Source: Bacteroidales bacterium (GTDB lineage Bacteria; Bacteroidota; Bacteroidia; Bacteroidales; UBA932). Taken from it: a stretch of 64,000 nt of DNA. Each line of letters begins with the position of its first letter. The stretch's first letter is position 1. The notes beneath the pieces are model-generated. The model saw nothing but the letters and a program-made list of their open reading frames with translations. It was not told where the DNA came from and searched no databases. A program made the position numbers and the translations under genes. This document shows positions 4,287-6,429 of this stretch, piece after piece. The stretch is from positions 1 to 64,000 of the forward strand of contig JAFQAR010000103.1 of NCBI GenBank assembly GCA_017399905.1. Direction: 5' to 3'.

Positions 4287-6389
4287 ATGCCGGTGACTTA
4301 TGATGTAATAGTTGTAGGTGGAGGACATGCCGGTTGTGAGGCCGCCATGGCAGCTTCTCGCATGGGTTCATCTGTGCTGCTCATATCGATGGATATGAAC
4401 AAATTTGCTCAGATGTCTTGTAATCCGGCTATCGGAGGTATAGCTAAAGGACAGATAATCAGAGAGATAGATGCTCTCGGAGGATATACTGGAATCATTA
4501 CCGACGCTTCTACACTCCAGTTCCGTATGCTCAACAGGTCGAAAGGACCGGCCATGTGGAGTCCTCGTGCGCAGTGTGATAAGATACAGTTTTCTCTGTA
4601 TTGGAGAAAAATACTCGAAAGTGCCTGTAAATTAGATATTTACCAAGATACAGTAACCGAATTTCTTTTCTCTGGTTCTAAAATTTCGGGTGTACGTACG
4701 ACTACCGGAGCAATTTTCAATTCTCAGACGGTTATTCTTACTGCCGGAACATTCCTTGACGGCAGGCTCTTCATCGGAAAGAATATCTTCGAAGGCGGCA
4801 GGATAGGTGAGATGTCATCTCATGGTCTGACTGCCCAGCTTGTCGGTATGGGAATCAATACCGCAAGAATGAAGACAGGTACTCCTCCGAGAATTGACAT
4901 ATCCACAGTAAGGACTTCAGATCTTGTCCATCAGTATGGAGATGAGAAACCTGATAAGTTTTCTTACCTTCCTTTCCTCTCCACTGCTCAGAACGGTACT
5001 CCACAGATGCCATGCTTTATAGTACATACCAATCCGGAGGTGCATGATATTCTCAAATCAGGCTTTGCCGACTCTCCTTTGTTTTCAGGAATGATCACAG
5101 GTATAGGTCCGAGATATTGTCCGAGCATCGAAGATAAGCTGAGAACTTTCGCCGGCAAGGATGAACACCAGCTTTTCCTCGAGCCTGAGGGCAGGGGAAC
5201 CAATGAATATTATCTTCAGGGTTTTTCTTCTTCTATGCCTCTTGACATCCAGATGGATGCTCTTCACTCCATCAAGGGACTTGAGGATGCGAAAGTATTC
5301 AGACCTGCATATGCGGTGGAATATGATTATTTCGATCCGACGCAATTGAAGCCTACTCTTGAACTCAAGAATATTGAAGGTCTCTTCCTGGCTGGTCAGG
5401 TAAACGGAACGACAGGATATGAGGAAGCGGCTGCCCAGGGTCTCATAGCCGGAATGAATGCCCATCTCAAGGTCTATGGAAAGGATCCGTTCATTCTCAA
5501 GAGAGATCAGGCTTATATAGGAGTGCTTATAGACGACCTTATAACGAAGGGTGTTGACGAGCCATACCGGATGTTTACTTCAAGAGCTGAATATCGTATT
5601 CTTCTTCGTCAGGATAATGCAGATCTCAGACTTACTCCTCTTTCATATGAATATGGCCTTGCAGATAAGTACAGATATGATTATACAATGAGGAAATATG
5701 ATTCGATCGACAGATTGAAGAATTTCTTCGAAGATGCTTCCATCAAGCCGGAATATGTAAACTCCTATCTTGAAAATTCAGGTACTTCTGTCATTTCTTC
5801 AAGAAAGAGACTGTCCGATCTTATTTCAAGACCTCAGACAAAATTGAATGATATTATTGATTTAGTTCCACGTGGAACTTTTTCTAAATTCAATATAAAT
5901 CTTGAAAAGGAATTTAGCTCTCCTTTATCCGATATTTTAAAGCCAGGAGTAGATTATAGCGATCTTCTCAAGTATGGAAATTATTCTTCATTGTCTGAGC
6001 TTATTGATGAAGAATACGTTTCTGGATCATTCAAGGATGCTTCCTATATTCTTAAATCCAATACAGAATATCCTGTTTCCCTGCTTGATGAATCCAATTT
6101 AAATAAGACAGTTGATGAAAATTACAGAAGGGAAATAATAGATTCTACAGAGATTTCCATCAAATATAAGGGATATATTCAGAGGGAACAGCAGATGGCG
6201 GATAAGATAATGCGCCTTGAGAATCTCTCAATTCCGGAAAATTTCGATTTCGACAAGGTGGAAAGCCTTTCAATCGAATGTAGACAGAAGCTGAAGAAGT
6301 ACAGACCTTTGACTATAGCGCAGGCCTCCAGGATATCAGGAGTGTCTCCTGCAGATATTTCAGTACTTTTGGTATATTTCGGTAGATAA
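4287..6389 (+). CDS. mnmG: tRNA uridine-5-carboxymethylaminomethyl modification enzyme MnmG (GidA)
   Basis: 700 residues against roughly 620-630 usual. With MnmE it modifies U34 of tRNAs reading NNA/NNG codons. N-terminal FAD site [14 protein letters not shown]; conserved [34 protein letters not shown] and [13 protein letters not shown] blocks (here [10 protein letters not shown]). The C-terminal domain ends [24 protein letters not shown], as in known MnmG. Extra length comes from a Ser/Asn/Asp-rich insert at about residues 527-611, between [12 protein letters not shown] and YRREIID, where other MnmG proteins have a linker of some 20 residues (from memory). The insert begins with VPRGT, encoded by a parS-like palindrome. 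Gene order ybeY-mnmG and the 1-bp gap indicate co-transcription. Confidence 0.95.
5865..5878. other. parS: parS-like centromere site 1, inside mnmG
   Basis: GTTCCACGTGGAAC, a perfect 14-bp palindrome (16 bp with the flanking A and T). It matches the ParB-binding core (CACGTG centre, GTT/AAC ends) of the bacterial parS consensus TGTTTCACGTGAAACA. In frame it encodes V-P-R-G-T at residues 527-531 of MnmG. parA and parB are not in the window. Confidence 0.75.
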
Positions 6390-6429
6390 AATAAAAATAA
6401 GTTCCACGTGGAACCTATTTTTATTTTAT
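6386..6429. other. parS: parS-like site 2 embedded in a 44-bp palindrome that may also be a bidirectional terminator
   Basis: The core GTTCCACGTGGAAC (6401-6414) is identical to site 1. It is flanked by exactly complementary arms ATAAAATAAAAATA (6386-6399) and TATTTTTATTTTAT (6416-6429), with only the A6400/C6415 pair mismatched. It starts inside the stop of mnmG and ends 7 bp before the ruvA stop codon on the other strand, so transcripts from either gene would carry a strong stem followed by a T-rich arm. Confidence 0.75.

Follow-up and report, generated by a model that had tools for sequence, protein, structure and literature searches.

Introduction

In chromosomal ParABS systems, ParB loads at parS as a CTP clamp, spreads, and is then pulled by ParA; that parS sites lie near the origin, and also within genes, is already known. 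Bidirectional intrinsic (Rho-independent) terminators are found between convergent genes and combine an A-rich arm, a tetraloop stem, and a T-rich arm. In Neisseria, DNA uptake sequences are paired as inverted repeats in terminators.

A Hi-C study of 12 gut bacteria, including two Bacteroidetes, set ori from clusters of parS together with GC skew (PMC10197239); its accessible passages quote the parS consensus TGTTTCACGTGAAACA, and state that ori is not always accompanied by dnaA and that no known condensin was found in the two Bacteroidetes. In the literature open to us on parS together with terminators, on mnmG/gidA, and on the Bacteroidetes, where coverage of subscription journals is thin, we found no description of a parS inside a terminator among the papers listed; the terms "parS sites" and "intrinsic terminator" occur together in one paper, which in its accessible parts uses them separately.

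Here we describe a locus from a Cryptobacteroides-like Bacteroidales in which a parS-like 14-mer lies once within mnmG and once between mnmG and the convergent ruvA. The reading we favor, with a probability of roughly 0.68, is that these sites form a parS cluster near the origin and that the second of them doubles as the core of a bidirectional terminator, roles in binding, segregation, and termination that we infer from the DNA and from its relatives.

Genomes and Loci Compared

The window, by which we mean the whole 64,000-nucleotide stretch that was analyzed, belongs to a draft assembly (G000) of 2,311,282 bases in 108 contigs that is 81% complete. Its gene order is sdhA, sdhB, hflX, tonB-like, ybeY, mnmG, ruvA, sufS, sufE, sufT-like, folK, and a class II tRNA synthetase; the gene names are our reading of Pfam matches, and the identities of folK and ruvB were confirmed in the same way. 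The draft assembly and 100 relatives make up a set of 101 genomes, of which 61 are here called good (at least 90% complete, at most 5% contamination), and a phylum sample comprised 296 genomes.

A total of 187 loci were oriented: the window, three outgroup loci, 35 obtained via the 14-mer or handles, 58 via MnmG similarity, and 90 via the MnmG C-terminus. The relatives found by MnmG similarity are mostly MAGs named Bacteroidales bacterium, with 3 of the 58 bearing the name Candidatus Cryptobacteroides. Two loci without the MnmG C-terminus and 14 without a convergent ruvA in the stretch were set aside, and removal of identical ends left 139 distinct loci (32 selected by the 14-mer or handles, 47 by MnmG similarity, and 60 by the MnmG C-terminus). 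It should be noted that these 139 loci are mutually related and were in part selected for holding the 14-mer, and that the 14-mer searches of the 101 genomes and of the phylum sample gave loci for only part of the positive genomes.

The features under study are as follows.

4287..6389, + strand: mnmG (gidA), PF01134 (E 6e-151), hosting site A
5865..5878, no strand: site A, probable parS, exact 14-mer within mnmG, read as codons GTT CCA CGT GGA AC- (V-P-R-G-T)
6386..6429, no strand: 44-bp palindrome tipped by site B (14+5 pairs and one mismatch around an ACGU tetraloop), putative bidirectional intrinsic terminator
6401..6414, no strand: site B, probable parS, exact 14-mer in the convergent mnmG|ruvA gap
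6437..7024, - strand: ruvA (RuvA_N, HHH_5, and RuvA_C matches), convergent with mnmG
7131..8366, + strand: sufS-type cysteine desulfurase, PF00266 (Aminotran_5, E 4e-133), hosting site C; we take it to be SufS by its resemblance and its position ahead of SufE
8112..8125, no strand: site C, degenerate parS-like GTTCCTTGTGGAAC in sufS, with mismatches at positions 6 and 7 and the right half-site whole

Occurrence of the 14-mer

An earlier note, made from the letters of the window, had reported two exact copies of GTTCCACGTGGAAC, 523 bp apart, and both statements hold: the copies lie at 5865-5878 and 6401-6414, the second starts 523 bp after the first ends (536 from start to start), and no further exact copy is found in the window. 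A count over the whole genome, which that note had proposed as a check, gave two exact copies in the 2.31-Mb draft assembly, both in the window. Among the 101 genomes, 57 carry the exact 14-mer (35 of the 61 good ones), compared with a single genome for a reversed-pattern control, and in the phylum sample the corresponding figures are 62 and 1 of 296. A chance origin of the 14-mer was ruled out by the reversed control in the 101 genomes.

Searches of the draft assembly with up to two mismatches gave five matches versus six for the reversed control, which is the level expected by chance; besides sites A and B, these matches are the copy at 8112 in the window and two on other contigs. Matches at this level were dropped as evidence in their own right, since the control is equally frequent. 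The copy at 8112 is therefore uninformative taken alone, and gains weight only from the retention of a parS-like site in sufS among relatives.

Outside the genus, 43 loci with the 14-mer were read (14 from the order and 29 from the phylum), and a MnmG match was found within the stretch of about 3 kb in 35 of these 43, with mnmG within about 1.5 kb of the 14-mer. The likeness to the ParB-binding core of parS proposed earlier is borne out, with 12 of the 14 inner bases matching the consensus quoted in the accessible text of PMC10197239 and the two halves forming a perfect dyad. We conclude that sites A and B are very probably chromosomal parS to which ParB would bind.

Conservation of Sites A, B, and C

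Site A is exact in 122 of the 139 distinct loci and carries one mismatch in another 10. In all 132 of these loci it is read in the same frame, as VPRGT in 124, VPHGT in 6, and otherwise in 2, and from the codon use in about the last 1,000 nt of mnmG the codon set found for V-P-R-G would be expected at 0.34%. Site A lies in a portion of MnmG that varies in length from species to species, and its commonest distances to the mnmG stop codon span 282 to 531 nt. Site A is conserved at the nucleotide level, as a chromosomal parS should be. In mnmG, the segment of about codons 534-610, which follows the VPRGT codons, is absent from three genomes (G205, G016, and G107), and many open frames of the genus have 619-690 amino acids compared with about 700; the parS codons are kept in G205 and in most of the others.

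Site B lies in a gap of 47 bp between the convergent genes. It is exact in 83 of the 139 loci and has one mismatch in 13, so that 96 gaps hold it at up to one mismatch; by selection of the loci, these are 19 of 32 (14-mer or handles), 41 of 47 (MnmG similarity), and 36 of 60 (MnmG C-terminus).

Among the 44 loci with full sufS and folK, 38 have a site of the type of C, which is never exact and lies within sufS in 31 of them and within folK in the other 7. Exactly one of positions 6 and 9 is altered in 38/38, and one seven-base half-site is intact in 33, the copy in the window included; site C is perhaps a weak parS-like site that is kept weak. The suggestion in the earlier note that mnmG hosts the partition centromere stands in part: site A is inside the gene, whereas site B lies in the mnmG|ruvA gap and the degenerate site C in sufS.

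A genome of the same family (G107; five contigs, 92% complete) has both mnmG and ParB but, with one mismatch allowed, no 14-mer; perhaps its parS has diverged.

ParB and ParA in Relatives

ParB_N (PF02195) matches were found in 92 of the 101 genomes and in 59 of the 61 good ones, and parA adjoins parB, as a parAB operon, in all seven ParB loci of relatives that were read. In these seven loci ParB carries the motif GERR(F/W/Y)(R/K)A. The top matches of one ParB from the genus among solved structures are Spo0J (6sdk, E 1.5e-52) and Noc (7nfu); two ParBs of the genus exceed the cut-off of TIGR00180, and both fall under that of the Noc model. From these matches in relatives it follows that a ParB exists in the genus. 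ParB_N gave no match in the draft assembly that holds the window, perhaps on account of its incompleteness (81% complete). The presence of parA and parB, which had been put forward as support for the parS reading, is therefore found in the relatives and not in this assembly.

Position Relative to the Replication Origin

Three genomes of the family are single contigs (G101, G110, and G297). Their mnmG-associated sites carry one mismatch each, and the evidence on the origin is therefore one of position and homology, not of the exact word. In forty 20-kb samples from each of G297 and G110, the minimum of the cumulative GC skew falls between the samples that flank the sites; the signal in G297 is clear, that in G110 weak. 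Within a 200-kb row around the sites, the minimum lies upstream of site A by 15.3 kb in G297, where it is shallow across about 25 kb, and by 15.6 kb in G110. In each row, AT content over 200 bp peaks at the skew minimum (0.85 in G297 and 0.83 in G110). The placement of the window in the origin domain, as proposed in the earlier note, agrees with these distances in the two relatives, and for the draft assembly itself we infer it from gene order.

The order sdhA-sdhB-hflX-tonB-like-ybeY-mnmG-ruvA-sufS-sufE, with ruvB ahead of sdhA, is kept in G297 and G110, with extra genes interspersed. An AT-rich gap before ruvB (PF05496) is a candidate oriC in both genomes (G297:C1:671967 and G110:C1:1494134) and holds DnaA-box-like words, including an exact TTATCCACA in G110. 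At up to one mismatch, DnaA boxes are not enriched in the 20-kb stretches with the candidate oriC compared with their neighbors (12 and 6 vs. 7 and 12). The start of ruvB could be read in 25 loci and in 8 further loci lies outside the stretch or too close to its end. Among the readable loci, ruvB is 6.0-8.6 kb from mnmG in 24 (the exception, L109, has 1.8 kb) and on the opposite strand in 5, and TTATCAACA occurs 83-90 bp before it in 12. From the gap before ruvB and the gene order of the relatives, oriC may be located a few kb beyond the left end of the window, whose first base is also the end of the contig.

The parB gene is about 485 kb from the sites in G297 and about 550 kb in G110. The use of dnaA as an origin marker was dropped: in G297 and G110 the listed DnaA_C match is separated from the sites by about 610 and 790 kb, respectively (G110 has a second match). 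In the draft assembly DnaA_C gave no match, perhaps again on account of its incompleteness.

The Palindrome at Site B

Site B forms the tip of a palindrome with an A-rich left and a T-rich right arm that fills nearly the whole mnmG|ruvA gap: The stop codon of mnmG (6387-6389) is within its left arm, and 7 bp separate it from the stop codon of ruvA. It folds with -17.7 kcal/mol on the + strand and -21.0 on the - strand (z -6.9 and -7.6), and none of 200 shuffles was equally stable, whereas stretches of 46 nt around sites A and C give -8.4 kcal/mol each (z -2.0 and -1.5). The stem on the + strand has an A-C mismatch at 6400/6415 and three G-C pairs, and on both strands a U-rich tract 3' of the stem forms part of the paired arm. 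The earlier note had ended its feature at 6429, the last paired base of the palindrome, which it did not itself describe.

A simple terminator scan gave 10 sites in the window compared with 11.8 in shuffles and listed site B on the + strand only; as there was no excess, it was set aside as support. A terminator-like hairpin of the ordinary kind is found in the window at 1644-1673, in the convergent gap between sdhB and hflX. In some relatives, the palindrome alone makes up the mnmG|ruvA gap, with 36 bp in L054.

Arms across Relatives

With one mismatch allowed, at least eight extra arm pairs are found at 38 of the 96 B sites; this is so for 4 of 133 A sites, and re-dealing the arms gives 3.7%. 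When flanks were shuffled, none of 40 shuffles was as stable in 38 of the 96 B sites; among the first 100 A sites, the same applied to 8. In a first subset of 61 distinct B sequences, re-dealt arms seldom equal the complementarity seen at pairs 1-9, 11, and 12 (at most 2 in 1,000 shuffles), whereas one arm pair of 14 (pair 9) exceeds shuffles in 86 A sequences and three scattered pairs (6, 7, and 14) do so in 50 C sequences. These shuffles ignore the relatedness of the sequences, and because scattered arm pairs at C also exceed them, shuffles alone overstate the signal.

Changes on a tree of mnmG ends were counted in independent pairs of loci, arm length being disregarded: of the 272 positions that changed at B, 66 are compensated, and at A it is 16 of 344. 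Pairs in which both arms are below 6 gave 7 of 117; compensation is a trait of the long-armed loci and not of these pairs. A count on pairs picked for long arms (65 compensated changes) was rejected as a circular choice, and we rely on the unconditioned one instead. Across relatives the arms are A-rich on the left and T-rich on the right; among the 38 loci with arms of at least 8, 37 have a purine-rich left arm, as would be required of two opposed terminators.

In gaps of at most 200 bp, the hairpin with parS is the best hairpin in 41/41 cases with arms of at least 6 and in 22/30 with shorter arms, versus 0/40 where there is no parS. The convergent gap between sdhB and hflX has a stem of at least nine pairs in 19 of 20 loci, with no parS among the hairpins listed.

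Site B is absent from 43 of the 139 gaps, and at 58 of the 96 B sites the arms add fewer than eight pairs, so that neither B nor its fusion with a terminator is essential; the fusion is one state among several. The three states of the gap change 36 times on the tree, compared with a mean of 63.9 and a least value of 56 for shuffled labels. Gaps without parS are often very short (median 13.5), and since a stem of at least nine pairs is found in only 14 of 40, a terminator is not obligatory in the gap. One relative (L062) has a gap hairpin without the 14-mer, and L058 and L059, both from one other MAG, have an unrelated hairpin; these two genomes fit the view that parS and terminator are separable. 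In the 43 loci from the order and the phylum, arms of at least 8 were found at 2 of 72 sites, and none was scored convergent by heuristic gene calls. Long arms therefore go with the convergent gap.

Discussion

We lean slightly towards a reading in which, in this Cryptobacteroides-like genus, a single element is both parS B and the bidirectional terminator for mnmG and ruvA, and would stop transcription from both sides: Its upper stem and loop would be the parS dyad and hardly vary, and the arms would evolve as the terminator stem. Under the joint reading of a parS cluster and a terminator core, ParB encoded in trans (parAB being about 0.5 Mb off in the two family genomes) would load at the sites as a CTP clamp and spread, and its movement by ParA would draw the sister origins apart. 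At the same time, a bidirectional intrinsic terminator in the convergent gap would take its upper stem and loop from the core of parS B, with the A-rich and T-rich arms ending the mnmG and ruvA transcripts at the centromere, at a ParB loading site. Such a fusion may shield ParB clamps from RNA polymerase, or bound ParB may tune termination; or the fusion may be a thrifty reuse of a ready-made dyad rather than a protection of ParB.

The sites could instead be ordinary parS, with the arms of B serving a contact with ParB or a partner or the extrusion of a cruciform, or being chance A/T-rich dyads. We hold this to be unlikely, though far from negligible: ParB sites are palindromic anyway, and the B sites with fewer than eight added pairs would suit it, but site A, which is better conserved than B, is armless and C is without a continuous arm; the polarity of the arms, with the left one purine-rich in all but one of the long-armed loci, is not required of a DNA dyad; and long arms hardly occur among the order and phylum sites, where none was scored convergent.

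Very little credence, by comparison, is due to the 14-mer being an operator, bound by some transcription regulator that has no part in chromosome segregation. A perfect dyad is what one expects of an operator, and the draft assembly has no ParB match, yet sites A and C are within coding sequence and B is between two 3' ends, which led us to reject an operator; the closeness of the sites to the skew minimum in two relatives, the 12 inner bases shared with the consensus in the accessible text of PMC10197239, and the ParB of 59 of the 61 good genomes also speak against it. That the palindrome is a terminator alone, and the 14-mer a by-product of its hairpin stem, we consider barely credible: site B does fold like a terminator, but the same 14-mer lies in mnmG without a long-armed hairpin, the core holds constant (exact in 83 of 96) as the arms change, and the hairpins of the neighboring gap are built on other stems.

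If the joint reading of parS and terminator is true, a centromere that doubles as a terminator would make it possible to study directly how DNA is shared between ParB clamps and RNA polymerase, as the arms can be altered without touching the ParB core and one genus has armed and armless forms at one locus. Given that mnmG is nearby in 35 of the 43 loci with the 14-mer from the order and the phylum, a parS by mnmG may also help to place origins in drafts where dnaA lies far off.

Compared with chromosomal ParABS systems, the sites share a palindromic core, very few copies, a ParB with the GERR motif in relatives, and, in two relatives, a position near the origin. They differ in that TTCC/GGAA replaces TTTC/GAAA (2 of the 14 positions), that parAB is about 0.5 Mb off, that one site is in a terminator-like hairpin, and that a degenerate site is found in sufS. 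The parS clusters of PMC10197239 are alike in the use of parS and skew for ori and in an ori that is not always close to dnaA, and differ in that the accessible passages are silent on mnmG and terminators.

Site B shares with bidirectional intrinsic terminators the A-rich arm, the tetraloop stem, the T-rich arm, and the closeness to both stop codons, and it has terminator-like features in common with the sdhB|hflX hairpin of the window; it differs in that its upper stem and loop are fixed as parS and only the arms vary. With the uptake-sequence terminators of Neisseria it has in common that a DNA word recognized by a protein serves as a terminator stem. The uptake sequences, however, have many copies genome-wide, serve DNA uptake, and pair as inverted repeats, whereas B is one centromere site whose parS dyad makes the hairpin alone.
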